Source: Stenotrophobium rhamnosiphilum (GTDB lineage Bacteria > Pseudomonadota > Gammaproteobacteria > Nevskiales > Nevskiaceae). From it: a stretch of DNA of 64,000 nucleotides. The DNA is taken from positions 124,001 to 188,000 of the forward strand of contig NZ_QANS01000001.1 in the NCBI RefSeq assembly GCF_003052265.1, written 5' to 3'. The first letter of the stretch is position 1. The number at the start of each line of letters is the position of its first letter. Below are positions 996 through 48,927 of this stretch, one piece after another. A model generated the notes under the pieces. The model searched no databases. It saw only the letters and a program-made list of their open reading frames with translations, and was not told the origin of the DNA. The translations under genes and the position numbers were made by a program.

Positions 996-1010
996 CCTCG
1001 TTCTTTAGTC

Positions 1011-1017
1011 GCCTAAC
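1011..1017 (-). other. Core half-site (GTTAGGC on minus) upstream of the TPR cassette
   Basis: The minus strand reads GTTAGGC followed by GAC, identical to the R' end of the complete attC at 497-503. It lies 15 bases upstream of the TPR start codon. I could not find the matching RYYYAAC partner in the 160 bases beyond it, so this could be the end of a decayed attC or an attI-like site. It marks the upstream boundary of the TPR cassette. Confidence 0.5.
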
Positions 1018-1026
1018 AACAATTAG

Positions 1027-1147
1027 ATGGAACACGGAACGCCGTATAACTCGGCAGTCGTTCCATGTAACTCTGAGTGAGGAATAAAAATATCCATTTT
1101 CGTCATGACTTTATTTCTATGGCGAAAAATTAACATGGAACGGGACC
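1027..1147. repeat. Nested inverted repeats beside the cassette boundary
   Basis: ATGGAAC at 1027-1033 pairs with GTTCCAT at 1060-1066, and inside them GCCG pairs with CGGC. GTTCCATGTAAC (1060-1071) also pairs imperfectly with TTAACATGGAAC (1130-1141). The segment is AT-rich and lies between the FAD monooxygenase stop and the cassette core site. It could be a degenerate recombination site or a transcript-end hairpin; no T-run terminator is obvious. Confidence 0.35.
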
Positions 1148-1176
1148 TGACACATATATAGCAAGCTTGCCCGGCA

Positions 1177-2388: not shown

Positions 2389-2428
2389 TCAGCAAAGCGT
2401 CCGGCAATCATTGGTTTGGATTTGCGAC

Positions 2429-2857: not shown

Positions 2858-2881
2858 TTTTCATTCCTTAACGTAGCCAAT

Positions 2882-3295
2882 CTATGGCTGTGTTTCAAAA
2901 ACAATCGCGCCTTCTGGAATTGAATACCAATCCTGTTTCTCACTAACCCAAACATGAATGGTCGGATTGATTACGCTTGTGTCAGCAAGAGTAGATGGCT
3001 TTAAGAAAATCTTGCTTGGGTCATTTGGGTTGAAGTGATACATGTGATTGCCGCAGGTGGTGCAGAGTTTGGCTGTGCTGATGTTTCCACTATCAGCAAC
3101 TCGGCTCCACTCCCGCATCTCGCCTTCAAACTTAATGGCGCTCGCATTGACCATCGCAGTAATGCTGAAGGCACTCGTCGATAGCTTTTGGCATTGCTTG
3201 CAGTGACAGGCAGCGACAACGATTGGCGCTTCCAATAGTTTGTACTTCACGCCGCCGCATTGGCATTCGCCAGAGATTGGATATTGCGCGCTCAA
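2882..3295 (-). CDS. GFA-family zinc protein, copy 2
   Basis: 137 residues. The start is a TTG at 3295 with AAGGAG seven bases upstream; no ATG fits the conserved N terminus. Zinc-ligand clusters are GECQCGGVKY, ACHCKQCQKL and CTTCGNHMY, in the GFA order. It differs clearly from copies 1 and 3, so this is not a recent tandem duplication. It is the same family as the neighbour at 2429-2857, and they could be co-transcribed. Biochemical role unknown beyond the family proposal of glutathione/aldehyde chemistry. Confidence 0.85.
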   Translation of the reverse strand: MSAQYPISGECQCGGVKYKLLEAPIVVAACHCKQCQKLSTSAFSITAMVNASAIKFEGEMREWSRVADSGNISTAKLCTTCGNHMYHFNPNDPSKIFLKPSTLADTSVINPTIHVWVSEKQDWYSIPEGAIVFETQP

Positions 3296-3317
3296 CTTAT
3301 GCTCCTTGTGCCTTTAC

Positions 3318-3659
3318 CTAGTCGGACTCTTGCTCATGCACCACTCCCCACGACTCGCACCAACCGCCATAAGGTTCTGCGAGAGCAGACACGGATTCCA
3401 GAATGGACGTGACCTGTTCGTAGCTGAGTTTGGCCTCAATGACGAATCGAACATCGCCCGGGTTGTCGCCTTCTGGCGCATTGATCTCGGCAGAAGGGTA
3501 GATCGCTTTTAGTTTTTTGATGAAGGCTTTTGATGGTGGCCATGCATCGAAGTCGACGCTGAAGTCGATGGTGTATTCAGCGTCGAAATCAAAGCCGCCT
3601 GCTTCGAGATCACGCAGCACTTCGCCGGTCGGATCATCAGGCCAGAAGCTTCTGTTCAT
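3318..3659 (-). CDS. RraB-like protein (ribonuclease E inhibitor B family)
   Basis: 113 residues, ATG at 3659. The segment IDFSVDFDAWPPSKAFIKKL and the end ALAEPYGGWCESWGVV match the RraB/DUF1260 family. E. coli RraB binds RNase E and modulates its action on selected mRNAs. Many distant members are simply annotated as ribonuclease E inhibitor-domain proteins without test, so the RNase E link here is inference. It lies 5 bases downstream of the aminotransferase stop and 22 bases upstream of GFA copy 2, on the same strand, suggesting one transcript. Confidence 0.75.
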   Translation of the reverse strand: MNRSFWPDDPTGEVLRDLEAGGFDFDAEYTIDFSVDFDAWPPSKAFIKKLKAIYPSAEINAPEGDNPGDVRFVIEAKLSYEQVTSILESVSALAEPYGGWCESWGVVHEQESD

Positions 3660-3664
3660 TGTGA

Positions 3665-4792
3665 TTATTTTAATTGCTCAATCACTGTCGTCAGTCGTTG
3701 CACAGCGGCGCCGACATCTTTTAATTTATCCAAGCCAAACAAGCCCACGCGGAACGTGCGGAAGTTTACGGACTCGCCACACATCAGTGGCACGCCAGCA
3801 GCAGATTGCATGCCGAGTGCGATGAACTTCTTTGCGTTGCTGATATCGGCATCTTCTGTGTACGACACCACAACGCCGGGGGATTCGAAGCCCGGTGCGG
3901 CGACGCTGGGGTAGCCGTTTTTAGCAAGCATCGCGCGGACTTCGCGGCCTAGCGTCCACTGCGCGTCGCGAACCTTTTCAAGTCCGATCGCCAGTGTTTC
4001 GTTCATCGCATCGCGTAGCTTTAACAAGCCATCTGTTGGCATTGTTGCGTGATACGCGTGGCCGCCGTCTTCAAAGGCTTGCATGATCTGCTGCCATTTT
4101 TTTAGATCAGCGGCGAAGCTGCTGCTGGTGGTTTCGGCAAGACGTTGACGTGCTGCGGCACTGAACATGATCAGTGCGGCGCAAGGTGTTGAGCTCCAGC
4201 CTTTCTGCGGTGCGCTGATGAGCACGTCGACGCCGCAAGCTTTCATGTCGACCCAGATGGCGCCGGAAGCAACGCAATCGAGAATGAACAAACCGCCGTG
4301 TTCATGTACGGCAGCAGCGACGCGCTTGAGATAGTCGTCGGGCAGGATGATGCCGGAGGCGGTTTCAACATGCGGTGCAAAAACCAAATCTGGTTTTTCG
4401 CGACGGATGGTTTCTTCAACTTCTTCAATCGCGGGTGGCGCGAAAGGTTGTTGCTCGCCGCTGGCAATCGCTTTGGCTTGCAGCACGGTTGTGAGAGCAG
4501 GGATGTTGCCGACGTCAAAAATTTGCGACCAGCGATAGCTGAACCAGCCGTTGCGAATCACAAGGCAATTCTTGCCCGTCGCAAACTGTCGCGCGACTGC
4601 TTCCATGCCGAATGAACCGCCGCCCGGGACAATTGCAATCGCGTCTGCGTTGTAGACCTCTTTCAGCATCGAGGAGACGTCACGCATCGCCTGCTGAAAC
4701 AGCTTCGACATGTGGTTGACGGAGCGGTCGGTGAAGACGACGGAGTATTCCTGCAGGCCTTCAGGGTCTACAGCGGGGAAGTTACGGGACAT
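3665..4792 (-). CDS. Class V PLP-dependent aminotransferase (alanine-glyoxylate type)
   Basis: 375 residues from the ATG at 4792, which has CGGAG ten bases upstream. An ATG at 4906 would add 38 residues encoded partly by the palindromic repeat at 4863-4944, so I reject it. Fold-type I features: PGGGSFGMEA near residue 57 binds the phosphate, HVETASG at 141-147 contacts the ring, LDCVASG holds the conserved Asp at 172, and Lys197 in SAPQKGW is the likely Schiff-base lysine. Relatives transfer an amino group between alanine, serine or similar donors and glyoxylate or pyruvate in the cytosol. Exact substrates are unknown. Confidence 0.85.
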   Translation of the reverse strand: MSRNFPAVDPEGLQEYSVVFTDRSVNHMSKLFQQAMRDVSSMLKEVYNADAIAIVPGGGSFGMEAVARQFATGKNCLVIRNGWFSYRWSQIFDVGNIPALTTVLQAKAIASGEQQPFAPPAIEEVEETIRREKPDLVFAPHVETASGIILPDDYLKRVAAAVHEHGGLFILDCVASGAIWVDMKACGVDVLISAPQKGWSSTPCAALIMFSAAARQRLAETTSSSFAADLKKWQQIMQAFEDGGHAYHATMPTDGLLKLRDAMNETLAIGLEKVRDAQWTLGREVRAMLAKNGYPSVAAPGFESPGVVVSYTEDADISNAKKFIALGMQSAAGVPLMCGESVNFRTFRVGLFGLDKLKDVGAAVQRLTTVIEQLK

Positions 4793-4862
4793 CAAAAGGC
4801 TCCGGGAATCTAAATTGGGGCGAAGTTTGCCTGATTTTTGTGACGGAGGATGGGGCTTCTTT

Positions 4863-4944
4863 GTAGGGTGGGTAGAACGCAGTGAAACCCACCGTTGTCG
4901 CGACATCAGAGACGGTGGGTTTCACTGCGTTCTACCCACCCTAC
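4863..4944. repeat. BIME/REP-like paired palindrome, subtype A
   Basis: 82 bp starting GTAGGGTGGGT and ending ACCCACCCTAC. Each half is a hairpin (GGTGGGT ... ACCCACC) carrying an outer GTAG, and the halves are inverted about a 15-base centre. A 5' GTAG plus a palindrome is the hallmark of REP units acted on by REP-associated tyrosine transposases (RAYT). Here the loops of the two halves are also complementary, so the whole unit can fold as one long hairpin. Confidence 0.75.
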
Positions 4945-4960
4945 GAATACAGTGCGTTTT

Positions 4961-5027
4961 GTAGGGTGCGCCGTGCGCACCAAGATTGGCGCTGCATTCG
5001 GCAACGCGTGCGCATAGCGCACCCTAC
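4961..5027. repeat. BIME/REP-like paired palindrome, subtype B
   Basis: 67 bp, starting GTAGGGTGCGC and ending GCGCACCCTAC, with GTGCGCAC-type inner arms. It follows the subtype A unit after only 16 bases, making a tandem of two different subtypes between the aminotransferase and the SMR gene. The outer GTAGGG/CCCTAC ends are shared with subtypes A and C. Confidence 0.7.
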
Positions 5028-5030
5028 AGG

Positions 5031-5363
5031 CTAGTGTGCGCTGACTTTCGAGAACAAATTCATCACTACGACGCCGGTGACGATCAGCGTCATTCCGACA
5101 ATCGCTGCGGGATCCAGCTTCTGCCCATAAATAATCCAGGCAATGGCCGCCACCAGCACAACGCCAAGTCCTGCCCAGATTGCATACGCAACGCCCACGG
5201 GGATGGATCGCAAGGCCAGCGACATAAAGTAGAAGGCGATGATGTATCCGGCGATGACAACTACGGATGGCCCAAGCTTGGTGAATTCATTGCTTGCTTT
5301 GAGTGCGGAGGTTGCGACTACCTCACCGATAATTGCAATGCCTAAGAATATCCAGTGATTCAT
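5031..5363 (-). CDS. Small multidrug resistance (SMR) efflux protein, EmrE/SugE type
   Basis: 110 residues from the ATG at 5363, which has GGAGAAGC upstream; a longer reading to 5471 adds non-membrane sequence and is unlikely. Four transmembrane helices cover almost the whole protein. The essential glutamate is present as Glu14 in [10 protein letters not shown], and the second helix has [29 protein letters not shown], the SMR signature. SMR dimers sit in the inner membrane and exchange protons for quaternary ammonium or other cationic compounds, or guanidinium in the Gdx branch. The A10/W-type residues fit EmrE/Qac better than Gdx, but I am not sure. The gene stops 3 bases from the subtype B repeat. 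Confidence 0.9.
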
Positions 5364-5488
5364 GATGCTTCTCCGCTCTAAATGGCCACTGCATTCTGAG
5401 CGCTTAGAGTTAGAAGAAACAGTCTTGTAACGATTGAATTGTTGTGAGCACCTATGCGCTTTGGATGGCATTCAGATGTTCGGATGCT

Positions 5489-5863
5489 TCACCAAAAATT
5501 ATCGTCTTTGCGCTCGGTCACGCTGCGGAGACAGTACTTCGCCATCTTGCGGATCAGGGCTTCTGGCAGCGGTTCGTTGTAGGGAACCTTGAGCATGCCT
5601 TTGGTGGTTTGCTGTTTGGCGAGTTCTTTACTGAACACGTCCATCGCCGACAAAACGGGTGCAAAGCTGAGATGCGCTTTGTTGCCGGAGAAGGCGAACA
5701 CGAAGCGCGGCTCTACGAAAAATGGCGTGTTCCATTTGAGCGTTTCCTCCGCTTTCGGCGCAACGCTTTTGAGGATCGCGTACAACTGACGCAAATGAGG
5801 CTGACCCTCTTTGGGAGCCGCTTTGATGTATTCAGCAATCGTAGTTGGACGTTTGATTGTCAT
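5489..5863 (-). CDS. DUF1801 (YdhG-like) protein
   Basis: 124 residues, ATG at 5863. The pattern IAEYIKAAPKEGQPHLRQLYAILKSVAPKAEETLKWNTPFF followed by AHLSFAP and the C-terminal MAKYCLRSV is that of DUF1801. This small alpha/beta fold includes Bacillus YdhG, described as a frataxin-like iron chaperone. Whether this member handles iron is not shown. It is probably cytosolic. It lies 22 bases downstream of the tautomerase stop on the same strand. Confidence 0.8.
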   Translation of the reverse strand: MTIKRPTTIAEYIKAAPKEGQPHLRQLYAILKSVAPKAEETLKWNTPFFVEPRFVFAFSGNKAHLSFAPVLSAMDVFSKELAKQQTTKGMLKVPYNEPLPEALIRKMAKYCLRSVTERKDDNFW

Positions 5864-5884
5864 CTCGGCCTCACACGCTCGTCG

Positions 5885-6280
5885 TTAAACTTCTACGGTA
5901 AATCCAAGCTCAACATCGCATCCTGCTTGGCCGCCACGAATTCCCCAGTTCTCTTTTGGAAGATCGCGCAAAAGAATTTTGACGTGGTTTGGCGGAATGC
6001 CAAGTGGTTCAAGATTGGTGACGATCGCTTTGTAGAGCGCGCGCTTTGCGTCGAGAGATCTGCCTGCGAAAGCATCAATGCTGACCAGCGTGAACAACTC
6101 TGGCTGCGTCAGTTTAGGTGAGCAGTACATCCGATGCGGTTCATGCACAACCAGGCGCACAGTTTTGTCCGTAGGTGGAATGCGAAATGCAGACACGAGC
6201 GCGGAGTGAACGGCCTCAATCATGGCGATTTCCTGCGCCTGATTATGGTTGCAACGGACTTCAATCAACGTAGCGGGCAT
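5885..6280 (-). CDS. Tautomerase-superfamily protein
   Basis: 131 residues. The ATG at 6280 gives Met-Pro-Ala-Thr, so Met removal would expose the catalytic Pro1 that defines this superfamily. A TTG at 6283 immediately before it would bury that proline and is rejected. AAGGAG lies ten bases upstream. The sequence continues IEVRCNHNQAQEIAMIEAVHSALVSAFRIP, then VVHEPHRMYCSP, and near the C terminus ILLRDLPKENWGIRGGQAGCD. This arrangement is that of the longer (about 130-residue, cis-CaaD/MIF-length) tautomerases rather than the 62-residue 4-oxalocrotonate form. Substrate unknown; cytosolic. Confidence 0.8.
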   Translation of the reverse strand: MPATLIEVRCNHNQAQEIAMIEAVHSALVSAFRIPPTDKTVRLVVHEPHRMYCSPKLTQPELFTLVSIDAFAGRSLDAKRALYKAIVTNLEPLGIPPNHVKILLRDLPKENWGIRGGQAGCDVELGFTVEV

Positions 6281-6307
6281 CAAAAATCTCCTTGTGCGCT
6301 AAACCTT

Positions 6308-6724
6308 TTACGGTGCGCTGTCGTCGCTTGGCGGCGCGTACTGCGCAAGCACCTGCGCTTCAGTGAGCATGGCGGTTTGGTTGGCGAAGGAATAATACGC
6401 GGGCTTGTTGTCGATGTAGATCTGGCTGGCGAGTTCAAAGTCGTTTGAATCAAATGCACCCGCAGGCACAAAGTACTCGCCCGTCGGCAACAGTTTGTAA
6501 TAAAGGTGCGTGCCGCATTGTTTGCAGAAAGCGCGCTCGGCCCATTCGGATGATGAAAAGACGGTGATCTGATCAGCGCCTTTGAATTCAACATTGGGCC
6601 CGCAATGAACACCCAGAAACGGCCCGCCACCCCATCGACGACAAAAGCCGCAATGGCATGCGCCAATCTCTTTTGTATCGGCTGACGTAAAGCTTACGGC
6701 GCCACACAAACAATGACCTTTCAT
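6308..6724 (-). CDS. GFA-family zinc protein, copy 3
   Basis: 138 residues, ATG at 6724. Zinc-binding clusters are GHCLCGAVSF (residues 3-12), ACHCGFCRRWGGGPF and CKQCGTHLYY. This copy has the compact N terminus and the WGGGPF segment seen in many GFA/CENP-V proteins. It is separated from copies 1 and 2 by the aminotransferase, SMR, DUF1801 and tautomerase genes. It lies 24 bases upstream of the tautomerase ATG, so the two may be co-expressed. Confidence 0.85.
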   Translation of the reverse strand: MKGHCLCGAVSFTSADTKEIGACHCGFCRRWGGGPFLGVHCGPNVEFKGADQITVFSSSEWAERAFCKQCGTHLYYKLLPTGEYFVPAGAFDSNDFELASQIYIDNKPAYYSFANQTAMLTEAQVLAQYAPPSDDSAP

Positions 6725-6813
6725 TTGCGTTATCTCGTTTTAGAAAATGGGACGGACTGTCTAGATTAATCCGCAGTCTCGTTAGATGGACACGGCCATC
6801 GTCAGAAAGTTTT

Positions 6814-6892
6814 GTAGGGCGGGAGTATCCCGCCGCTTGCCGCGTTGATTGCGTGATCTAAATTCGCGGAAGACGGGATGCTCCCGCCCTAT
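6814..6892. repeat. BIME/REP-like paired palindrome, subtype C
   Basis: 79 bp, starting GTAGGGCGGGAGTATCCCGCC and ending GGGATGCTCCCGCCCTAT. The two hairpins are GGCGGGA/TCCCGCC type and lie in inverted orientation. The right end has CTAT where other copies have CTAC. It lies between GFA copy 3 and a membrane-protein gene, 5 bases from that gene's stop. Confidence 0.7.
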
Positions 6893-6896
6893 GTGG

Positions 6897-7259
6897 TTAC
6901 TCAGTTGCGAAATAAACGTAGGTGATGAGCCCAGATATGAACGGAGAGAAATATAGAATTGAAAAGCCAAAAAATAGAACTAGCCCTTCGATCCCTCTCG
7001 TTTTAACTAAATAATAGGGCAGCGCAATTGGCCAAATCGCTAAAAAGTAAAAGGAAAAATCCAGCGTGCGATGAACTTTTTGTGTGGCGGCATCTACGCG
7101 TGCCCAACAGGCCACCAATGCTGCAAAAACAAATGTCCAAGTAACTGTTAGTCCGTCACTTGCCTCTACACCTTTTAAGGAAAGAACTACTGTGTAAGCG
7201 CTTAGCAGAAGGCTCAGGCCAAGAATTAATAACAGGTAAGTGTTCGCTTTAATTTTCAA
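6897..7259 (-). CDS. Small membrane protein of unknown function
   Basis: 120 residues from a TTG at 7259 whose bases overlap the TGA stop of the GIDE gene, with GAGGG seven bases upstream; this suggests translational coupling. A TTG at 7337 would also be in frame, but the added residues would overlap the GIDE C terminus for 82 bases, so I prefer the shorter form. Hydrophobic segments are TYLLLILGLSLLLSAYTVV, LTVTWTFVFAALVACW, FSFYFLAIWPIALPYYLV and GLVLFFGFSILYFS. Its position links it to the LemA-GIDE unit. Function not recognised. Base composition is lower in GC than its neighbours. Confidence 0.6.
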   Translation of the reverse strand: MKIKANTYLLLILGLSLLLSAYTVVLSLKGVEASDGLTVTWTFVFAALVACWARVDAATQKVHRTLDFSFYFLAIWPIALPYYLVKTRGIEGLVLFFGFSILYFSPFISGLITYVYFATE

Positions 7260-8173
7260 AACAAATCCCTCAACTGCAGCGCATAAGCACACAACCACCC
7301 ACACCCAATCGCTCCCAACAAATTCAGCAAAGCCCAAAAGCGATAACGCCTCGTCATGCTTTTCTGCGTGAGGGTGGAGAGAATAAAAGGACGGCGATCT
7401 GGTGGATTGCTGAGCACATGCAAATCCGGATCAAGGGATAGCTCAACGTGCTGTGCGCGCACGTGTTCGAGTGCGGCGCGGCGGGCGGCTTCCCACTCTT
7501 GCATGTCGATCTGGCCGTCGTTGTTGCTGTCGAAACGTTTAAGCAAGTTGTACTTATCGCGTTTCCATTCGCCCATGAGTTCGCTGACGTCGCGTGATTC
7601 GTTGAGATCGAGAATCGCGGTTTGTGTGCGGAACCAGCCGGTGGCGTAGAGCGGGGCGCCGATCAGGATTAATTTTTCGGTGTAGCGAAAGTCGCCAAAG
7701 CTGAGCCAGCCTGAGCCATCGGGCGGACGATGTGGGCGTCGCACCGGGCCGCTCCAACTGCGGCTCAGTGATGGGGTAACGCTGGCGTCGTCGGGATCAA
7801 CGATGCATTCGCCAGTGGGGTCGGCGAGCAAAAACAATTCGCCAGAGGTTTCTTCTTCAACCGTGCGCCAGTGATTATTTTTGCCGTTGCGGTCGCGCTC
7901 TTGCACGCGGAATGACCACCACGCGCACGGTGTGTCAGACAGTGGCGAGACAATTGGTGGGCCGGGCAATAGACGCGCATGGCCGTTCAGTTCTACATAG
8001 CCTTGTGCGGCAGAGCGGATCAAGGAAGATGGCGTGTCTTCCAGCAGGCGCGCGCGGTAGATGTACATGAAGCCAAGGCCGAGCAGCACGAGGCCGCCGA
8101 GCACCGTAATTAGCAACGCCAGTAGCAGGTGTCCGCTACTGGCGTTGAGTATGGCGTGCGTGAGTGCCGTCAA
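7256..8173 (-). CDS. GIDE-domain membrane protein with an EF-hand
   Basis: 305 residues starting at a TTG (8173) three bases after the lemA stop. A membrane helix occupies about residues 16-38 and another about 280-298, giving a cytosolic or periplasmic middle. Residues about 70-195 match the GIDE domain, named from the E3 ligase MUL1/GIDE but found without RING in bacteria: LSDTPCAWWSFRVQER, EETSGELFLLADPTG and FRYTEKLILIGAPLYATGWF. Residues 215-226 form a canonical EF-hand loop (DSNNDGQIDMQE), implying Ca2+ binding. LemA and GIDE genes are repeatedly neighbours in bacteria; the joint role is thought to be envelope-related but is unproven. Confidence 0.8.
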   Translation of the reverse strand: MTALTHAILNASSGHLLLALLITVLGGLVLLGLGFMYIYRARLLEDTPSSLIRSAAQGYVELNGHARLLPGPPIVSPLSDTPCAWWSFRVQERDRNGKNNHWRTVEEETSGELFLLADPTGECIVDPDDASVTPSLSRSWSGPVRRPHRPPDGSGWLSFGDFRYTEKLILIGAPLYATGWFRTQTAILDLNESRDVSELMGEWKRDKYNLLKRFDSNNDGQIDMQEWEAARRAALEHVRAQHVELSLDPDLHVLSNPPDRRPFILSTLTQKSMTRRYRFWALLNLLGAIGCGWLCAYALQLRDLF

Positions 8174-8176
8174 AGC

Positions 8177-8743
8177 TTAGCCGCGGAACAATGCGCCGAC
8201 GTCAACGTCACTCTTTTCTGCTGAGGTGAACTCCAGCAGCACGGCTGGTTTAAAACCAAAGAAGCGCGCAATGAAGACGTCTGGGAATTCTTCCAGTCGC
8301 ACGTTGTTGGCGTTGGCGGTTTCGTTGTAGAACTCGCGGCGGTCGCTGATGGCGTTTTCCAGTCCGGTGATGCGGCCCAGCAGGTGCTGGATGGATTGAT
8401 TGGCGCGCAGCTCAGGGTAGGCCTCAACCGTGGCGGTGATTTTGCCCAGACCTGCCGTGAGTGCAGTCTGCGCGGCACCAACACCTTTAACGTCGCCGTT
8501 CTGGCGGGCGCCGTCGGCGGCGGAGCGGGCGGCCATGACCTGAGACAGGGTTTCGCGCTCAAACTGCATGTATTGCTTGCAGGTTTCGACCAGCTTGGGC
8601 AGCTCGCTGTGGCGCTGCACCAGCAGGATGTCGATATTGCTCCAAGCCTTGCCGATGCCATGCTTGAGATTGACCAAACCGTTGTAAATAACGATGCCGT
8701 AGAGCACAGCCACTGCAATGGCGGCAAGCCAGATATACGTCAT
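8177..8743 (-). CDS. lemA: LemA-family protein
   Basis: 188 residues from the ATG at 8743, with AGGGGA six bases upstream; an ATG at 8749 is in frame but worse placed. One N-terminal membrane helix (YIWLAAIAVAVLYGIVIYNG, residues 3-22) is followed by a long helical bundle: LVNLKHGIGKAWSNIDILLVQRHSELPKLVETCKQYM, then FERETLSQVMAARSA, AYPELRANQSIQHLLGRI and FYNETANANN. These are diagnostic of LemA. LemA proteins are membrane-anchored with the bundle outside or in the cytosol depending on species; function is uncertain. It heads a unit with the GIDE protein. Confidence 0.9.
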   Translation of the reverse strand: MTYIWLAAIAVAVLYGIVIYNGLVNLKHGIGKAWSNIDILLVQRHSELPKLVETCKQYMQFERETLSQVMAARSAADGARQNGDVKGVGAAQTALTAGLGKITATVEAYPELRANQSIQHLLGRITGLENAISDRREFYNETANANNVRLEEFPDVFIARFFGFKPAVLLEFTSAEKSDVDVGALFRG

Positions 8744-8879
8744 AACCATCCCCTGAGTCCCTGAATCGATGCTTTTTTGATAGGCAAAGGATGAAGGAAA
8801 TGGAACCTGCGCGCTACCATAGCGTCTGAAGTGACTGAGTCCGCGTATCCCACGCGTCAAAATTGAACAAAGGTGTCCT

Positions 8880-9890
8880 GTGCGCAAGTCGTTTTTGTGG
8901 TTTGTACCGCTGATCTCCGCCCTCCTGCTGCTGTCTGGTTGCACCGGACTTGGCGCGATCAATTCGCTGACCTCGAATGAGGGTTATCACGTCACCAGCA
9001 ATCTCCAGTACGACCGCGTCACTGGCGAAGCCCTGGATGTGTACAACTTTCCTCAGGCGCAGAACGCGCCAGTCGTCGTATTTTTCTACGGCGGCCGCTG
9101 GACCACGGGCACCAAGGAAGAATACAAATTTGTTGGTCAGGCGCTGACTGCGCAGGGCTTCGTCGTGGTGATTGCGGACTACCGCAAATATCCGCAGGTG
9201 CGTTTCCCGGCTTTTGTGCAGGACGGTGCCAAGGCAGTGAAATGGACGCGTGAAAACGTTCAGAAATTTGGCGGCGATCCAAGCAAGATTTTCGTGATGG
9301 GCCATTCTTCCGGCGCGCACATCGCAGCGATGCTGGCGCTGAACGATAGCTATCTCAAAGCCGTGGGTGGCAACCGCAGCTGGCTCAAAGGCATGATCGG
9401 CCTGGCTGGTCCTTATGACTTTATGCCGCTGACGGCACCAGATATGCGTGACATGTTTGGTCCATCGGATCGTTATGAACAGTCGCAGCCGATTCTGTTT
9501 GTTGATGGCCAGAATCCGCCGATGTTGTTGTTGGCTGCAGAAGACGACGAAGTGGTGCTGATCAAGAACACGCGCAACCTTTCACGCGCCGTGGCCAAAG
9601 CAGGCGGCCCCGTTGAAACGCTGACTTATCCCAAAGTGAGCTGCCCGGCTTTTAACAGCCATAGCTGTATTTTGGCGACCATTTCTACACCGCTGCGTAA
9701 GCAGTCGGATGTGCTGGCAGGCATCAGCGAATTCATTAAGCGTCGCGCCAGCGGTGTGGGTGCGGTGGCACCGATTCTGCCGAATGCCGTGCAGACGATT
9801 CCGGAAAATCAGGCCATCCCTGTTAATCAGGCTCCTTTGATTGTGGAAGACATGCCGCCGGTTGGAGAACCAACGCCGGTGACTCCGTGA
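8880..9890 (+). CDS. Alpha/beta-hydrolase lipoprotein (esterase/lipase-like)
   Basis: 336 residues from a GTG at 8880 (AAAGGTGT upstream). The signal ends in a lipobox LLSGC with Cys21, so it should be lipidated. The hydrolase fold has an HGG-like oxyanion motif altered to FFYGGRW (69-74) and the nucleophile elbow GHSSG with Ser143, followed by EDDEV for the acid. It resembles the BD-FAE/carboxylesterase group acting on short-chain esters. The C-terminal 50 residues are proline-rich and probably disordered. The stop overlaps the next GTG by four bases, so it is coupled to the gamma-carbonic anhydrase gene. Confidence 0.85.
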   Translation: MRKSFLWFVPLISALLLLSGCTGLGAINSLTSNEGYHVTSNLQYDRVTGEALDVYNFPQAQNAPVVVFFYGGRWTTGTKEEYKFVGQALTAQGFVVVIADYRKYPQVRFPAFVQDGAKAVKWTRENVQKFGGDPSKIFVMGHSSGAHIAAMLALNDSYLKAVGGNRSWLKGMIGLAGPYDFMPLTAPDMRDMFGPSDRYEQSQPILFVDGQNPPMLLLAAEDDEVVLIKNTRNLSRAVAKAGGPVETLTYPKVSCPAFNSHSCILATISTPLRKQSDVLAGISEFIKRRASGVGAVAPILPNAVQTIPENQAIPVNQAPLIVEDMPPVGEPTPVTP

Positions 9891-10417
9891 TCCGATCGTT
9901 TCAGAACATCACGCCCAAGCTAGCACCGGGTGTTTATGTTGATGAATCGGCGCAGGTGATTGGCGATGTCACGCTGGGGGAAGATGCCTCAGTGTGGCCG
10001 CTGACGGTGGTGCGTGGTGACGTCAACAAGATCACTATCGGCGCGCGTACCAACATACAGGACAACTGCTGCCTCCACGTGACCCACGATGGTCCGTACA
10101 CACCCGGTGGCGTTGAGCTAATCATTGGCGAAGAAGTCACCGTGGGGCATGCGGTGATGTTGCACGCTTGCACTATTGGCGATCGTTGCTTGATCGGCAT
10201 GGGCGCCATCTTGTTGGATCGCGTGGTGTTGGAAGACGAATGTTTTGTCGCGGCGGGTTCGATCGTGTCGCCGGGCAAACGCCTCAAGGGCGGTTGGCTT
10301 TATCGCGGCACGCCAGCTGTGGCAGTGCGCGAGCTTACGGAAGCAGAACGCGATAATCTTCGTTATTCAGCGGCGCATTACGTGCGGCTAAAAAATAAAT
10401 ATCTCGCGAGCGCATGA
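9887..10417 (+). CDS. Gamma-carbonic anhydrase family protein (YrdA-like)
   Basis: 176 residues from a GTG overlapping the preceding stop (GTGA). Left-handed beta-helix hexapeptide repeats run through most of the protein (VIGDVTLGEDASVWPLTVVRGDV, then TIGARTNIQDNCCLHVTH, VGHAVMLHACTIGDRCLIGMGAILLDRV). The three metal-ligand histidines are present in CLHVTH and VGHAVMLHAC. Family members bind zinc or iron as trimers and some hydrate CO2; many bacterial ones are untested. It overlaps the HMG-CoA lyase gene by four bases. Confidence 0.9.
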   Translation: MIRSFQNITPKLAPGVYVDESAQVIGDVTLGEDASVWPLTVVRGDVNKITIGARTNIQDNCCLHVTHDGPYTPGGVELIIGEEVTVGHAVMLHACTIGDRCLIGMGAILLDRVVLEDECFVAAGSIVSPGKRLKGGWLYRGTPAVAVRELTEAERDNLRYSAAHYVRLKNKYLASA

Positions 10418-11301
10418 AGCCATACGTCAAAGTAGTTGAAGTCGGACCCCGTGACGGTCTGCAAAACGAAAAGCAATTAGTCCCCGCAGCAACCAAGATC
10501 GAATTGATCCAGCGCCTTGCTGATGCAGGACTGCCTGTTGTTGAAGCCACTAGCTTCGTCAGCCCCAAGTGGGTGCCGCAAATGGCGGACGCAGACGAAG
10601 TGCTCGCAGGCATTCGTCGCAAAGCAGGTGTGAGCTATCCAGTGCTGGTGCCGAACGTGCAGGGCCTTGAGCGCGCGTTTGCGGCAGGCGTTGAAGAGAT
10701 CGCTGTATTCACCGCGGCTTCCAGCGCATTCACGCAGAAAAATATTAATGCGACGGTTGAAGAATCGCTGGCGCGTCTTGCGCCAGTGATTGAGCAGGCC
10801 TTGGCCAAGAACGTCAAAGTCCGTGCTTATGTTTCCACCGCGCTCGGTTGCCCGTATCAGGGCGATGTGCCGGTATCAGAAGTAGTACGAGTCACCAAGG
10901 CTTTGGTGGATCAAGGCGTCTATGAAATCTCATTAGGTGACACGATCGGTGTCGGCACACCTAAGAAAGCGCGCGAAATGTTGCGCGCCTGCGCCGATGC
11001 GGTTGGCATGGACAAGCTCGCGGCCCACTTCCACGACACGCGAGGTCAGGCGCTGGCCAATGTGCTGGCTTGCCTTGAAGAAGGCGTCCGCGTGGTTGAT
11101 GCCTCAGTGTCCGGCCTAGGCGGTTGTCCCTACGCAAATGGTGCCAGCGGCAATCTGGCGACCGAAGATTTGATCTATATGCTTCACGGTATGGGATTTG
11201 AGACCGGCGTTAATCTGGATGCCTTGGTCGATACAGCCGTGTGGATGTCCGGTCAGCTTGATCGCTTACCTGCCAGTAAACTCGCTCGCGTCAAAAGATA
11301 G
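10414..11301 (+). CDS. Hydroxymethylglutaryl-CoA lyase
   Basis: 295 residues, ATG overlapping the previous stop. DRE-TIM barrel metalloenzyme: VEVGPRDGLQNEK at 9-21 (metal and substrate binding), EATSFVSPKWVPQMAD, FHDTRGQALAN with metal-ligand histidines, and the loop GLGGCPYANGASGN carrying the catalytic cysteine. It cleaves HMG-CoA to acetyl-CoA and acetoacetate, the last step of leucine degradation. The next two genes encode a CoA-transferase that can activate acetoacetate, so the three form a coherent pathway end. Length is standard. Confidence 0.95.
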   Translation: MKPYVKVVEVGPRDGLQNEKQLVPAATKIELIQRLADAGLPVVEATSFVSPKWVPQMADADEVLAGIRRKAGVSYPVLVPNVQGLERAFAAGVEEIAVFTAASSAFTQKNINATVEESLARLAPVIEQALAKNVKVRAYVSTALGCPYQGDVPVSEVVRVTKALVDQGVYEISLGDTIGVGTPKKAREMLRACADAVGMDKLAAHFHDTRGQALANVLACLEEGVRVVDASVSGLGGCPYANGASGNLATEDLIYMLHGMGFETGVNLDALVDTAVWMSGQLDRLPASKLARVKR

Positions 11302-11335
11302 GTAAAATCGCGGCCTCGTTAAAGGGGAGCACGCC

Positions 11336-12034
11336 GTGAATAAGATCTATCCCAGCGCCGCAGAGGCGTTGGCCGATGTTGTTGCAGATGGGCAAACGCT
11401 GGCTGTAGGTGGTTTCGGTCTCTGTGGTATTCCTGAAGCCTTGATCGCTGCGCTACGCGACAGCGGCAAAAAAAATCTCACCGTAATTTCCAACAACGCA
11501 GGCGTCGATGGCTTTGGCCTCGGCATGTTGTTGAATACGCGTCAGATCAAAAAAATGATTTCGTCCTACGTCGGCGAGAACAAAGAATTTGAACGCCAAT
11601 ATTTGGCAGGCGAGTTGGAACTCGAATTCACACCACAAGGCACGCTCGCAGAAAAACTGCGCGCTGGTGGTGCAGGCATCCCAGCGTTCTTCACCAAGAC
11701 GGGCTACGGCACCATCGTTGCTGAAGGCAAAGAAACGCGCGTGTTTGAGGGCGATCATTACGTGATGGAACGTAGCCTGCGTGCTGATATTTCATTAGTG
11801 AAAGCGTGGAAGGCCGATACCTCTGGCAATCTCGTTTTTCGCAAAACCGCACGCAACTTCAATCCGATGGTGGCTACGGCGGGTCGCATCACGATTGCGG
11901 AAGCAGAAGAGATTGTGCCGGTGGGTTCGCTTGATCCAGACAACATTCACACGCCGGGAATTTTCGTGCAGCGCTTGGTGCTGAATGCGAATCCGGAAAA
12001 ACGTATTGAACAGAAAACGATGAGGAAAGCGTAA
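11336..12034 (+). CDS. scoA: 3-oxoacid CoA-transferase, subunit A
   Basis: 232 residues from a GTG with AAAGGGGAG eight bases upstream. Contains the CoA-binding loop [14 protein letters not shown] near residues 23-36 and [12 protein letters not shown], both typical of the alpha subunit of succinyl-CoA:3-oxoacid CoA-transferase. With subunit B it transfers CoA from succinyl-CoA to acetoacetate in the cytosol. A 1-base overlap (TAATG) couples it to subunit B. Its place behind HMG-CoA lyase supports acetoacetate as substrate; acetate/butyrate-type transferases are a less likely alternative. Confidence 0.92.
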
Positions 12035-12663
12035 TGGCCTGGAACCGTGATGAGATGGCTCAACGCGCGGCAGGTGAATTGCGCGATGGCTTTTATGTGA
12101 ACTTGGGAATTGGTTTGCCGACGCTGGTCGCAAACTTTATTCCTGAAGGCATGGACGTGTGGTTGCAGAGCGAAAATGGTTTGCTCGGCATTGGTCCGTT
12201 TCCAGGTGAAGATGAAGTTGATGCTGATTTGATCAATGCCGGCAAACAAACCATCACCACAGTACCGGGCAGTGCCTTTTTCAGCAGCGCAGATTCCTTT
12301 GCGATGATTCGCGGCGGCCACGTCAATCTGTCGATTCTCGGCGCGATGCAGGTCACCGACACTGGCGACATCGCCAACTGGATGATCCCGGGCAAGATGG
12401 TCAAAGGCATGGGCGGTGCGATGGATCTGGTCGCAGGCGTCAAACGCGTCATCGTCCTTATGGAGCATACGGCCAAGGGTGGTGAGCATAAAATCCTCAC
12501 AAAGTGCACGCTGCCACTGACGGGCCTCAAGGTCGTCAACCGCATCATCACCGAGCTTTGTGTGTTGGATGTGACGCCGATGGGGCTTAAGCTAGTGGAG
12601 TTGGCACCGGGCGTAACGGCCCAAGAAGTGCGCGAAAAGACCGGCGCACCGGTCATCGCTTAA
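12034..12663 (+). CDS. scoB: 3-oxoacid CoA-transferase, subunit B
   Basis: 209 residues. The catalytic glutamate is Glu47 in [15 protein letters not shown], which forms the covalent CoA-thioester intermediate. [15 protein letters not shown] and [28 protein letters not shown] are further family signatures. It pairs with subunit A, overlapping by one base. Length matches free-standing bacterial beta subunits (about 210 residues). Confidence 0.93.
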
Positions 12664-12689
12664 AAATTCAGATATAGGGAAGAACAGGT

Positions 12690-13442
12690 ATGACCAAAAA
12701 ACTCGTGCTGCTGCGCCATGGCCAGAGCCAGTGGAATCTCGACAACCGTTTCACCGGTTGGGTGGATGTGGATATCACCGAGCAGGGCCGCGCTGAAGCG
12801 CAGAACGCCGGCAAGCTGATGCGCGATGAAGGCCTGATGTTTGATGTGGCCCACACCTCCGTTCTCAAGCGCGCCATCAACACGCAGCACACCGCACTGG
12901 CCGAAATGGATCAGCTGTGGATTCCGGTGAACAAGAGCTGGCGTTTGAATGAGCGTCACTACGGCGCACTGCAAGGTCTCGATAAATCCGAAACCACCGC
13001 CAAGTACGGCGAAGCGCAGGTCAAAGTGTGGCGTCGTTCGTATGACATTCCACCTCCGACAATGGATGAGAACGACGGCGGCCACCCACGCTTTGATCGT
13101 CGTTACAGCAAGCTCGATGCAACGGCATTGCCGGGCACCGAGTCACTCGCAACCACACTCGACCGCGTGTTGCCTTACTGGCACGACGCAATTGCCCCGC
13201 AGCTCAAAGCAGGTCAAACCGTTTTGGTAACAGCACACGGCAACTCACTGCGCGCGCTGTACAAGTACCTCAACAACATCGCTAACGATCAGATTGTTGA
13301 ACTCAACATTCCGACCGGCATTCCTTTGTTGTTTGAACTGCACGACAACCTGTCAGTGAAAAACTTCCGCTACCTCGGTGATCCAGAGGCTGCGAAGAAA
13401 GCTGCTGAGGCTGTGGCGAATCAGGCTAAGTCGGCTAAGTAA
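12690..13442 (+). CDS. gpmA: 2,3-bisphosphoglycerate-dependent phosphoglycerate mutase
   Basis: 250 residues, ATG at 12690 with AGGGAAG upstream. The phospho-acceptor histidine is His10 in [10 protein letters not shown]. Further histidine-phosphatase-fold motifs are [28 protein letters not shown], the second histidine in [11 protein letters not shown], and [12 protein letters not shown]. It interconverts 3- and 2-phosphoglycerate in glycolysis and gluconeogenesis. It is probably its own transcription unit, ended by the strong hairpin at 13458-13494. Confidence 0.96.
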
Positions 13443-13457
13443 GTTTTCGGTTTGTAA

Positions 13458-13494
13458 AAAAGCCGCGCAATCAGCAGATTGCGCGGCTTTTTTT
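13458..13494 (+). terminator. Rho-independent terminator after gpmA
   Basis: AAAGCCGCGCAATC pairs with GATTGCGCGGCTTT around an AGCA loop, followed by a run of T. A GC-rich 11-bp core and T-tract make this a strong intrinsic terminator. Confidence 0.9.
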
Positions 13495-13596
13495 ATGAAA
13501 GTTGTCTGTTTTTCGAGGGGCGAGGCTATAAAAATTTGGACGTTTTGTGAGCGGAGGGATAGCATCAAGGCATAAATATAAAAGGGAGGAGTCGAT

Positions 13597-14280
13597 ATGC
13601 TTAAGTTAATGCTGCGTGCAGGTTTGATGTTGGCGACATTAGGTGCGACAGGTGTGGTGCAGGCCGGTGGTTATCCCAATTCAGGAATGGTGATTGGCGC
13701 CGCACAGTTGGCGGATCAGAGCATTCTTGTGCTGCCATTGCCAAACCTGACTGCTGCTAATTCTCTGCTGGTGCAGTTGGGGCTACAGAAGATTTCGCAA
13801 CCGGCTATATACGTGGCTCCAGGGGCCAGCAAGGCAGTCGCCATTTCGCTTGATTGTGCGCAGACGGAATTAACGGGGAGTCCTCCCTATTCGCTCTTTC
13901 AGCAATTTGTAGCTTCGGGCAAGGGTTCTGATGGCGTGACATACGGCATTCACATGACCGGTTTTCAACTCGAGAGTGGTGGTTATTTCCCGGGTTATCC
14001 ATTCAGCTATCTGGTTCTCTCGCCCGCAATGCGCGTCAATCTCCCAGCAAGCGTTGTCAGTGCCGTTAGTCTTGTCGATCTGCAGTTGATGACTGTATAT
14101 GGAAGATTGGCGTATCTCGGAGCTGAGCAAATCGGGCAAAGTGCTTCAGTTAATGTAACGGTTTCGACCCATGTTGCCGCGACTCGTACAAAGACCAATA
14201 GCTGCGGAGTACTGTACGGTTCTTCCGATCCTTGGGTGCAGACTGGACTGTTCGCTTTGGTTGGCACTAGCCTTCCTTAG
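13597..14280 (+). CDS. Secreted protein of unknown function
   Basis: 227 residues, ATG at 13597 with AAAGGGAGGAG upstream, an excellent ribosome site. A Sec signal peptide is clear (MLKLMLRAGLMLATLGATG, cleavage likely after VQA near 23). The mature part is rich in small and hydrophobic residues in short strand-like stretches, with only two cysteines (CAQTELTG and NSCGVLYG), which could form a disulfide. No known domain recognised. It stands alone between two intrinsic terminators, so it is likely monocistronic. Periplasmic or extracellular by inference. Confidence 0.7.
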   Translation: MLKLMLRAGLMLATLGATGVVQAGGYPNSGMVIGAAQLADQSILVLPLPNLTAANSLLVQLGLQKISQPAIYVAPGASKAVAISLDCAQTELTGSPPYSLFQQFVASGKGSDGVTYGIHMTGFQLESGGYFPGYPFSYLVLSPAMRVNLPASVVSAVSLVDLQLMTVYGRLAYLGAEQIGQSASVNVTVSTHVAATRTKTNSCGVLYGSSDPWVQTGLFALVGTSLP

Positions 14281-45003: not shown

Positions 45004-45873
45004 ATGACCGCACCCGCCGTTGTTGCAGGACATCTTTACGTTGTGGCTACACCCATCGGCAATTTGGGTGATTTGTCCCCGCGCGCGCAGGCAGTTTTGG
45101 GCGGTGTGGACCGCATTTGTGCCGAGGACACCCGAACCACGGGCTCGATGCTGGCGCAGTTCAATATCCGCAAGCCCATGGTGGCCTTGCATGATCACAA
45201 CGAAGATCAGAGCGCGTCGACCTTGGTGCAGGCGCTCAAGAATGGGCAATCGTTGGCGCTGGTCTCGGATGCGGGAACTCCGCTGATCTCCGACCCCGGC
45301 TTTGCGCTGGTGCGCGCCGCGCGTGCTGCGGGCGTCACTGTTATCACGATCCCGGGCCCTTGCGCGGCTGTTGCGGCTTTATCGATTTCGGGTATCGCGA
45401 CTGACAGCTTTACCTTCATTGGATTCCTGCCGCCCAAGGCGCAGGCTCGCGCGGTGCGCTTGAAAGCATTGGCGGCTGAAACTCGTACGCTGATGTTTTA
45501 TGAATCCAGTCACCGCATCGGTGAATCTGTAGATGCGATTGCCGAAGTGTTTCCTACGCGTCAGCTTTGCCTTGCGCGTGAGCTGACTAAATTATTTGAG
45601 CAGAGCATTACTGCAACGGCGACAGAAGTTGCCGCATGGCTCAAGCAAGACAGCAACCGCAGTCGAGGTGAATTCGTCTTGGTGTTGGAAGGTGCTGAGG
45701 CTAGCGATGCACATGCCGATGATGCAGAGGCCACACGTATTTTGCGTGTGCTGATGCAGGAGCTTGGCGCATCACAGGCTGCAAAACTTGCAGCTGAAAT
45801 TACCGGTCGTCGCAAGAATGAACTGTATGCGCTTGCTACACGCCTAGGCGCTGATAGCGGCGACGAAGCTTAG
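45004..45873 (+). CDS. rsmI: 16S rRNA (cytidine1402-2'-O)-methyltransferase
   Basis: 289 residues, ATG at 45004. Tetrapyrrole-methylase fold: LYVVATPIGNLGDLSPRAQAVLGGVDRICAEDTRTTGSML (N-terminal signature), LVSDAGTPLISDPGFALVRAA, PGPCAAVAALSISG, FIGFLPPK and MFYESSHRIGESV. With RsmH it makes m4Cm1402 in the 30S decoding centre. It is monocistronic, ended by the very strong hairpin that follows. It diverges from lpoA over about 55 bases. Confidence 0.96.
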   Translation: MTAPAVVAGHLYVVATPIGNLGDLSPRAQAVLGGVDRICAEDTRTTGSMLAQFNIRKPMVALHDHNEDQSASTLVQALKNGQSLALVSDAGTPLISDPGFALVRAARAAGVTVITIPGPCAAVAALSISGIATDSFTFIGFLPPKAQARAVRLKALAAETRTLMFYESSHRIGESVDAIAEVFPTRQLCLARELTKLFEQSITATATEVAAWLKQDSNRSRGEFVLVLEGAEASDAHADDAEATRILRVLMQELGASQAAKLAAEITGRRKNELYALATRLGADSGDEA

Positions 45874-45887
45874 CCGGCACAAAAAAA

Positions 45888-45936
45888 TGCGCCGCCTCGT
45901 AGCGTTGTATTGCTACGAGGCGGCGCAGGTTGATTT
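45888..45936. terminator. Strong terminator between rsmI and the beta-helix gene
   Basis: TGCGCCGCCTCGTAGC pairs perfectly with GCTACGAGGCGGCGCA (16 bp) around eight bases. T-rich sequence follows on the plus strand and seven T on the minus strand beyond the A-run. It can serve both convergent genes. Confidence 0.9.
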
Positions 45937-48927
45937 TTAATTAGCGCAGCTAGTCGAGCCTGGGTACTTGCTCTCGTCTGCTTTCACTACGCTACCAATC
46001 CACTGTTCCAACAGATCATGACCTTCAATGTGCACGACGCTGCGTGCGATTGGGGGCATGCGTGCTGCAGGTAGCGTTGCTTCTGGACCCGTGCGGAATG
46101 CGAGCACTGAGTCAGCAACGTTGCCTGGATGAATGTCATACGTACGACCGCCGCGACCTTCAGTGCCAGTTGCCGTAGGACGTTTGCAAATGCCGTAGCT
46201 CAAATCCACCGCACGCAGTGAGTCGAGGTAATAGCCGGTGCTTGCCGCAAAGCCGTGCGAGTTGTGGCAATGCTCGCAGTTCACTTCGAGGTAGGCACGG
46301 GCGCGGGCTTCGATATCGGCGTCAGAGCCTGCGGCGAATCCAGCATCGCCCGGCTTGTTGTACGCAGGCGCGTGTTCCAGCTTGCTTGCGATCTGTGTGG
46401 TCGGATCAACGCCGAGATCAGACGGGCAACCTGTGACCAGCCCCTTGTCGCAGAGGTACTTGATCTGGTTCTTGCCGAAGATGTCGTGATGGCTTTGATC
46501 GGTGACGAGGGTCGACTCCGATTTGAAAGCACGATTGAGGAAACGCACTTTCGGTCCAATCGGTGAGGCGCCAGCTTCCTTGTTGTCGTTGGAGTGGCAG
46601 CTCTGGCATTGGCCCGCATTCGGAATCAGATAGTTGCTAGTGCTACCGACTTCAGCGAGGCCAGAGTCAACGTTGTGCTGATTCCATGACACGGATGCAG
46701 TGCCGCCGCCCATCGCAAGTTTGGCAACGCGCTTGCCGTTCTCAGTCGTCCAGATGTACGGCAGACCATCCCAACGTACCTGGCCCTTGGAAGTAACACG
46801 CTTGATCAGCAAGCGAGTTTCAATCGCTACTTCCGTATTGGCCGTTTCGTTTCTAAACGAGAAGGTCTTGGCGATGATCGTGCCCGTCGGGAAGATCAAG
46901 GTTGCGTTGACGCCATCGGTCTTGGCGTCTTTGTAGATCGCTTTCTGGCCTGACGGAATAAATGCGACGCGATACTTCACGGCGTAATCCGAGAACAGTT
47001 TGGTGTTGAGCGCAAATGGCACGCCACCGCTGTTAGGTGCGCTGGTTGGATCTTCTGCATTATCGAACAGACGATATTGATCCAGCGTTGGGCAGTTAAC
47101 CGGTGCGGCGGCAAAGTTGACGCCAGAGCCTCCGGCTTTGCACAGCTTGTCGATTTTTTCCTGAGTAGGTGCCGGGTCAAAGGCACCGCTACGCTTGAAT
47201 GGTGGAATCACCACTTCAGGCAGCTTCGGCAGATTCTTGCCGTAGCGTGCCACGCAATTGTGTGGAGACATGTCGAAATCAGATGCGATCAATGGCAACG
47301 CAGCCGGATCAAGATTATTTTCGATGACCAGCTCCAAGCCCTTGGTGCCGTGGAAGTTGGCAAAGGGCAGAGCGCCGCTGGCGAACTCATTGTCGCTATC
47401 GATGCAAGAGAACCATTGTGGCTTGATGCGTGGTGCATCTGGCTTGCTGGTATCGAACTTGTAAGCGTTGTAGTGGCAGGACGGATCAGGCGTCTGATTG
47501 CTCATCAGCGGTTTGCCAATATCATTCTTGGGTACTGGGTTGCCGTCGATGTCTTTCGGATACGGGCAATCCTTATTGTAAGTATCAAGCAGTCCATCCC
47601 ACAGAATGTGCGCGCCGTGTGGGCCGACTGGCACCGTCAGGCCGGCTTGCAGGCAAGTTGGCAAGTTCAACAAGCAGCCGGCCTGGTTTTTCACGCCGAT
47701 CAGAATAGGCAGCAGCTTGGTCAGGTCCTGATCAATCAATGCCGTGGTGGTTGGCAAAGGCAGACCATTGCCATTGTTGACGAACTTGTTTTTCCAGATG
47801 TGTACGCCTTCGGTGTACCAGTCTATGCGATGCTCGCTCGGACGATCACCAGAAGGGAACAGCTCGTAGCTGGTGTGAATGATGCCGCCAGTGTTGTTGT
47901 CGATGAACTGGTTGTTGTAAATGTCGATGCGATCGTAGGCCAGCGTAATCATGCCGCTGCCCGGCGGCACCTTGCCGACGATGCCGCCGGAGGTGAAGTT
48001 GTAGGTATTGTTCTTGCGCGAGATGTTGTCGTGCATGGTGGTGCGGTCACCATACTGACCAAGGCCGTCAAGATCGTAGATCAGGAAGCCGCCGGTGTTG
48101 CACTCAGCAAGGTTGCCGAGATATTCGCCGCTTTGTACGTTTTCAATTTCGAAACCAAAAACGTTATAGGCCACACGGCTTTTGCGGATGATCGCAGTCG
48201 TCGTTTGTCCAACGTAAATGCCCGCATCGGACGCACCGATGGACTCCGATTCATCAATCAGGATGTTGCGCGACGAAACCGGATAGATGCCGTAACGACC
48301 GGTCTTGTTGCTCACGGTGTAGTCGGGCGAAGTGGTGCCGCCGAGTAGTACGTTTTCCGGAACATTAGGATCGCGAACGGCGGGGCTGGTGCAAGCAACA
48401 TTCAAACGCTTTGCTGAATTCGCAGCGTAGTTGGACGCAGTGATCGGATCGGGACTCATGCGTCCACCGCCAGAAGACCAGATCGCACGTACGCGGGTCA
48501 CGGTGCCGTGATCGACCGAACGCATTTCAACGCCATTGCCGCCGGTGTCGAGCACCGTCAGGTCTTCTACCCAGAAGCCGTGAACGTTGACGGCAAGAAT
48601 GCCTTCAGGCGCGTTGTTGTTCTTGAACGACAACACGGTCTTGTCTTTGCCGCAGCCTTTGACCCTGATGTCTTCAGTGTTGATCAGCTGTAGCGAAGAG
48701 GTCAGTTCAAAGTAACCGCAATCAAACTGAATGACGTCGCCTGGTGCGGCCTGCACCATGGCGGCCACCATATCGGTAGTTGCATTGGCACCTGGCTTGA
48801 TCAGAAAGGTGCGACCACCACCTGAGCTGCCGTTAGAGTTGTCAGTCGGGCTACTGCTGCTACAAGCGGCGAGTAGGCCTAGGCTCAGGGAGCCAATGAG
48901 GAGAGAGCGGAGTAATGGCAGGCGCAT
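45937..48927 (-). CDS. Fusion lipoprotein: parallel beta-helix plus SO_2930-type diheme cytochrome c
   Basis: 996 residues from the ATG at 48927. A lipobox (SLGLLAACSS) follows a signal helix, so it should be a lipoprotein. Residues about 45-480 hold right-handed beta-helix repeats (ILAVNVHGFWVEDLTVLDTGGNGVEM, NILIDESESIGASDAGIYVGQT, AVAYNVFGFEIENVQ, then NNQFIDNNTGGII). Residues about 600-996 carry two heme motifs, CQSCH at 774-778 and CEHCH at 884-888, with downstream MPPIARSVVH. Each half matches a family, TIGR03805 (beta-helix) and TIGR03806/HNE_0200 (diheme), usually encoded by neighbouring genes. Here they form one polypeptide. Envelope electron transfer linked to carbohydrate or polymer binding is inference. 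The Shine-Dalgarno is poor. Confidence 0.85.
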   Translation of the reverse strand: MRLPLLRSLLIGSLSLGLLAACSSSSPTDNSNGSSGGGRTFLIKPGANATTDMVAAMVQAAPGDVIQFDCGYFELTSSLQLINTEDIRVKGCGKDKTVLSFKNNNAPEGILAVNVHGFWVEDLTVLDTGGNGVEMRSVDHGTVTRVRAIWSSGGGRMSPDPITASNYAANSAKRLNVACTSPAVRDPNVPENVLLGGTTSPDYTVSNKTGRYGIYPVSSRNILIDESESIGASDAGIYVGQTTTAIIRKSRVAYNVFGFEIENVQSGEYLGNLAECNTGGFLIYDLDGLGQYGDRTTMHDNISRKNNTYNFTSGGIVGKVPPGSGMITLAYDRIDIYNNQFIDNNTGGIIHTSYELFPSGDRPSEHRIDWYTEGVHIWKNKFVNNGNGLPLPTTTALIDQDLTKLLPILIGVKNQAGCLLNLPTCLQAGLTVPVGPHGAHILWDGLLDTYNKDCPYPKDIDGNPVPKNDIGKPLMSNQTPDPSCHYNAYKFDTSKPDAPRIKPQWFSCIDSDNEFASGALPFANFHGTKGLELVIENNLDPAALPLIASDFDMSPHNCVARYGKNLPKLPEVVIPPFKRSGAFDPAPTQEKIDKLCKAGGSGVNFAAAPVNCPTLDQYRLFDNAEDPTSAPNSGGVPFALNTKLFSDYAVKYRVAFIPSGQKAIYKDAKTDGVNATLIFPTGTIIAKTFSFRNETANTEVAIETRLLIKRVTSKGQVRWDGLPYIWTTENGKRVAKLAMGGGTASVSWNQHNVDSGLAEVGSTSNYLIPNAGQCQSCHSNDNKEAGASPIGPKVRFLNRAFKSESTLVTDQSHHDIFGKNQIKYLCDKGLVTGCPSDLGVDPTTQIASKLEHAPAYNKPGDAGFAAGSDADIEARARAYLEVNCEHCHNSHGFAASTGYYLDSLRAVDLSYGICKRPTATGTEGRGGRTYDIHPGNVADSVLAFRTGPEATLPAARMPPIARSVVHIEGHDLLEQWIGSVVKADESKYPGSTSCAN

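Follow-up and report, generated by a model that had tools for sequence, protein, structure and literature searches.

The closest described relatives of the protein examined here are a beta-helix protein and a diheme cytochrome encoded by two genes, corresponding to the NCBIfam models TIGR03805 (beta_helix_1) and TIGR03806 (chp_HNE_0200, the SO2930 family diheme cytochrome). The descriptions of these models reportedly already mention a possible fusion. Other known proteins share one of the two domains, namely the fusions of a glucose/sorbosone dehydrogenase (GSDH, PF07995) to TIGR03806, and NosD, which is a periplasmic beta-helix. SO_2930, the namesake of the TIGR03806 family, has been listed, beside SO_2931, among the Shewanella oneidensis cytochromes predicted to be at the outer membrane or extracellular (PMC4837345), and SO_2931 is an outer-membrane multiheme cytochrome (PMC12175506). 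No functional study of TIGR03805 or TIGR03806 proteins, of SO_2930, or of beta-helix proteins from alkane degraders was found in the open literature.

The window, a stretch of 64,000 nucleotides from Stenotrophobium rhamnosiphilum, encodes both domains in a single polypeptide. The gene lies on the minus strand (45937..48927), starts with ATG at 48927, ends with a stop codon at 45937 and has no internal stops. The translation, the family matches and 33 long-fused loci indicated that it encodes a 996-amino-acid lipoprotein in which a beta-helix is fused to a diheme cytochrome, and the intact frame and lipobox bear out the sequence-only reading of one 996-residue lipoprotein. The signal peptide (residues 1-22; 48862..48927, minus strand) contains the lipobox LLAAC at residues 18-22 (LAAC in its four-residue form), Cys22 is conserved at a level of at least 90% across 39 fused homologues, and the residue at +2 is Ser rather than Asp. 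This LLAAC-S arrangement predicts sorting to the outer membrane and does not specify the membrane face, so that the earlier description of the protein as surface-anchored goes beyond what the signal predicts. Both TIGR03805 and TIGR03806 are single-copy in the window's genome. A strong hairpin of 16-17 pairs (45888..45927), terminator-like for the minus strand, on which its T-run lies, is located directly 3' of the fusion gene, between it and a methyltransferase gene at 45004-45873.

Two genes joined by a frameshift or assembly artefact were ruled out. An equivalent product of about 1000 amino acids is encoded by 33 named loci, and also across the order, and its recurrence in these loci excludes sequencing error or chance. 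Identity to the window protein ranged from 40 to 78% among the 30-odd long-fused homologues that were aligned.

Family membership was assessed by profile and by sequence. TIGR03805 scored 224 bits against a cut-off of 141.5, in two stretches, the better of which covers residues 206-392. TIGR03806 aligned at residues 611-979 over model positions 1-313 of 314, with both CXXCH sites of the family present (residues 774-778 and 884-888), yet scored 256.9 bits, below the cut-off of 313.3. The diheme domain has insertions and falls under the cut-off, so by NCBI's rule it is a relative and not a member of the family. The proposed assignment of the two halves therefore stood for TIGR03805, whereas for TIGR03806 it stood as full-length homology but not as membership at the curated cut-off. 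Pfam gave solely sub-threshold matches, to NosD and Beta_helix. Membership of NosD was rejected (TIGR04247, 18 bits versus 300; PF05048, 23.1 bits versus 23.6), as were the SoxX, MtrC and cytochrome c3 families, for each of which the protein scored under the cut-off. Neither phmmer nor a profile search found a relative of solved structure, the best profile hit being a phage appendage at E 0.04. The polysaccharide lyase and epimerase beta-helix enzymes were likewise set aside: neither sequence nor profile searches matched any of them with a solved structure, and the likeness is at the level of fold only.

A full-length AlphaFold model, for which the input alignment held the 39 fused homologues, had a mean pLDDT of 87.2 and a pTM of 0.86, and placed the strands of the beta-helix first, followed by a cap to about residue 606, a part rich in beta-strands and finally both heme sites. 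The right-handed beta-helix domain spans about residues 40-383 (47779..48810, minus strand) by NCBIfam match, AlphaFold secondary structure and Foldseek; residues 40-350 were mostly above pLDDT 90, and the predicted fold is that of a right-handed beta-helix. Its strands stop at about residue 383 in the model, well before the end near residue 480 proposed from the sequence. The motif GASDAGIYVGQ (residues 231-241; 48205..48237, minus strand) is invariant in the 39 fused homologues and marks a candidate site for catalysis or binding in this domain. In the alignment and the model, the cap or linker at about residues 384-606 (47110..47778, minus strand) is separate from the beta-helix and mostly irregular or helical; it is long in the long-fused clade and contains invariant Cys508, Cys558 and Cys596.

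The diheme domain begins with the beta-strand-rich part (residues 607-770; 46618..47109, minus strand), in which an 83-row alignment revealed invariant Asp647, Lys651, Arg653, Lys687, Glu703, Arg705, Trp719 and Trp726. The heme 1 site, CQSCH (residues 774-778; 46594..46608, minus strand), and the heme 2 site, CEHCH (residues 884-888; 46264..46278, minus strand), lie exactly where they had been read from the sequence. Both CXXCH motifs are invariant in the 83 diheme domains, and chance heme motifs were thus ruled out. Met957 (46057..46059, minus strand), invariant in 83/83 domains, is by its spacing a candidate sixth ligand of heme 2. For heme 1, no invariant Met or His that could serve as the sixth ligand was found among the 83 domains; its domain has invariant Asp, Lys, Arg, Glu and Trp residues, and the heme may have either an unusual ligand or an open site. 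Modeled alone from the 83 rows, the diheme domain reached a pLDDT of 94.1 and a pTM of 0.92, and Foldseek found no PDB fold match to it with E below 0.001.

To describe how the two domains are arranged elsewhere, a class sample of 369 genomes, taken evenly from across the class, and 80 named loci, the best by similarity to the window protein, were used. TIGR03806 was present in 39 of the 369 genomes, and its domain occurred in three main arrangements: fused to a beta-helix, next to a beta-helix gene, or fused to PF07995. Fused and split forms both occurred among the 80 best loci: 33 encode a long fusion, which in one MAG is present as two overlapping frames, 4 encode a short fusion, 42 have the two genes side by side, and 1 has a beta-helix gene for which no partner was detected. 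The 42 pairs agree with the statement that the halves are neighboring genes elsewhere, and the proposal that they act jointly is very likely, given adjacent genes elsewhere. Within the window's order, TIGR03805 was over its cut-off in 53/85 genomes, in frames nearly all about 940-1230 amino acids long, a length that suggests fusions. As the fused form is the norm in the order, fusion is no surprise there, and the earlier view of it as something unusual did not hold; both models are also typed 'subfamily_domain' by NCBIfam. One Salinisphaerales MAG carries two long-fused copies in tandem (L073, 9890-16093).

In a tree of 88 diheme domains, all long fusions fell on one side of one branch with weak support (58), and the joint set of the long fusions and three stand-alone cytochromes of locus L064 was marked at 97. 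The nearest neighbor of the window protein was that of L086, a Nevskiaceae MAG. Sisters of the long-fused clade were the short fusions L102 and L103 (97 and 98), and the fusions of L104 (Binatota) and L129 (Planctomycetota) were placed apart from it, so the fusion probably arose more than once. Diheme domains linked to GSDH, an architecture found in 19/88 rows, formed a deep branch separate from the beta-helix-linked ones. Such PF07995-TIGR03806 fusions were seen at L039, L042-L048, L050-L059 and L067, eight of them domain-scanned and the others assigned by architecture and tree position, and some add F5/8 type C, Calx-beta or dockerin domains. The L064 cytochromes (G347:C105, 76-4278) are three tandem diheme proteins without a beta-helix, in a genome with an AlkB-type gene.

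Alcanivorax, Marinobacter, Hydrocarboniphaga, Solimonas, Zhongshania and their relatives carry the long form. Genomes were searched with an AlkB-type alkane monooxygenase of the window's own genome, and matches with E below 1e-60 were counted; the query has the motifs HELGH, EHYG and HSDHH, and the assignment to AlkB is based on motifs and similarity, no NCBIfam model having named these proteins. A match was present in 31/33 long-fused and 11/44 split-type genomes (Fisher p 4e-10, ignoring relatedness), all from loci selected by similarity, and the base rate in the class sample was 21/369. Within that sample, 4/5 long-fused genomes were positive, counting that of the window, which encodes three AlkB-type proteins, one of them as a rubredoxin fusion. 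Across the order, TIGR03805 was found in 52/73 genomes with AlkB and 1/12 without, uncorrected, like the other co-occurrence statistics, for relatedness and genome completeness.

A second protein was associated with the long form, an M19-like lipoprotein of approximately 820 amino acids with a divergent Peptidase_M19 domain. It was detected (E below 1e-30) in 23/25 long-fused and 0/25 split-type genomes. In 10/10 Alcanivorax/Marinobacter-type loci, its gene lies directly upstream of the fusion gene on the same strand, the mechanically called frames being separated by -104 to +37 nt. These results indicated that the M19-like lipoprotein gene is likely the partner of the long fusion. The exceptions were two long-fused genomes without AlkB and two without the M19-like gene. 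In the window's genome, M19-like homologues are located elsewhere and not beside the fusion gene; no conserved neighborhood around the window copy was seen among the relatives fetched, and the earlier remark that no redox partner is adjacent is correct within the window. Two of these homologues lie in one cluster of the window's genome, locus L165 (G000:C16:350001-370000, 596-14034, minus strand), which contains an AraC-type regulator, two M19-like lipoproteins, a DUF6351 tannase-like protein, a Pfam-less membrane protein, DUF1329 and DUF1302. The Pfam-less membrane protein is shared with the fusion neighborhood of genome G229; a 485-amino-acid homologue of it, likewise Pfam-less, is encoded with an M19-like fragment and a 121-amino-acid protein just upstream of the fusion at L060 (2-5794, minus strand).

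We tentatively favor, with somewhat less than even confidence, an outer-membrane redox lipoprotein that works with the M19-like metallohydrolase lipoprotein in bacteria using alkanes or comparable hydrophobic carbon sources. In the GSDH fusions, the diheme module comes after a domain of dehydrogenase type (C-terminal to PF07995 in 8/8 two-domain proteins scanned), and by this analogy its most plausible role is that of a built-in acceptor of electrons. If so, the beta-helix, with its invariant GASDAGIYVGQ and neighboring residues, would be the substrate-handling part. It would bind, and perhaps oxidize, the substrate; the C-terminal diheme domain would take electrons from the beta-helix side and pass them to a soluble cytochrome c and on to the respiratory chain, and the fusion would hold electron donor and acceptor together. 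The domains, their conservation, the gene adjacency and the co-occurrence were observed directly; heme loading, the direction of electrons, the identity of the substrate and a connection with growth on hydrophobic compounds are all inferred. The GSDH-fused and beta-helix-linked diheme domains lie on separate deep branches, so function need not transfer between them, and the beta-helix yielded neither a cofactor site nor any known dehydrogenase motif and may only bind. The window's own locus, which has no adjacent partner gene, also counts against this reading.

A polysaccharide role had been suggested by the sequence-only reading; spelled out, the beta-helix would bind or cut a polysaccharide of the cell surface or matrix, and the hemes would oxidize or sense it. 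The closest PDB folds to the beta-helix by Foldseek are indeed polysaccharide lyases and epimerases (RbmB, AlgE4, PL6 lyases and chondroitinase B), yet most right-handed beta-helices would be expected to match in this way, the TM-score to target is at most about 0.56 with best identities of about 10-13%, and no recurrent carbohydrate gene cluster lies beside the fused genes in the neighborhoods compared. The suggestion of polysaccharide binding thus draws on a generic likeness, and we regard this role as unlikely. Metal handling similar to that of NosD, in which the beta-helix would bind a metal such as copper or iron and the hemes, at the outer membrane, would shift that metal between oxidation states to serve uptake or the maturation of enzymes, appears equally improbable. 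It is consistent with the weak similarity to NosD (18 bits to TIGR04247 in the window protein and 36-44 bits in the short fusions; 23.1 bits to PF05048 against 23.6) and with the iron requirement of AlkB enzymes, but every NosD score is under its curated cut-off, and the long form has its strongest partner in the M19-like protein, not in a metal transporter. TonB-dependent receptor genes directly adjoin several split beta-helix/diheme pairs (L034, L116, L120, L124 and L125); the receptors are nearest to siderophore receptors, which would favor metal handling, but pass no curated receptor cut-off. A conduit or adhesin, with the beta-helix as spacer or adhesive stalk and the hemes wiring the outer membrane to periplasmic cytochromes, is quite unlikely: the grouping of SO_2930 with predicted outer-membrane or extracellular S. 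oneidensis cytochromes (PMC4837345) fits it, but the strict conservation of GASDAGIYVGQ and surrounding residues suggests a site and not a spacer, and most of the genomes in which the long form is found also encode an alkane hydroxylase that uses oxygen.

What is new is the link of the long form to AlkB-type enzymes and the M19-like lipoprotein; the fusion itself is ordinary in its lineage. With this link, function can be tested in named organisms (Alcanivorax and Marinobacter), on a likely operon and under a defined growth condition. The diheme domain, with a high-confidence model, no PDB match and a place in PQQ-type dehydrogenase fusions, lends itself well to structural study. The favored outer-membrane redox reading can be taken further, to a previously unrecognized two-protein redox system of alkane degraders, made up of the long lipoprotein and its M19-like partner, in which a beta-helix, and not a beta-propeller, would feed a diheme domain of a fold absent from the PDB, a proposal that we consider somewhat unlikely. 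Compared with the TIGR03805/TIGR03806 pair, the window protein has the same two domains in the same beta-helix-then-diheme order, and many of the paired proteins also have a lipoprotein-type signal. It differs in being one polypeptide with an enlarged cap (384-606), in a heme-to-heme spacing of 110 versus about 80 residues, in scoring under the TIGR03806 cut-off and in having an M19-like partner of its own. The short fusions L102 and L103 (Gammaproteobacteria), L104 and L129 share its domains and their order; L102-L104 are shorter, at about 790-860 amino acids, L129 is longer and cut at a contig end, L102 and L104 pass both NCBIfam cut-offs, and L104 and L129 are outside the long-fused clade. 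NosD (TIGR04247, PF05048) shares the beta-helix but has no heme domain. The GSDH fusions carry the same diheme module, also C-terminal of a catalytic-type domain, but there that domain is a PQQ-type dehydrogenase and not a beta-helix.
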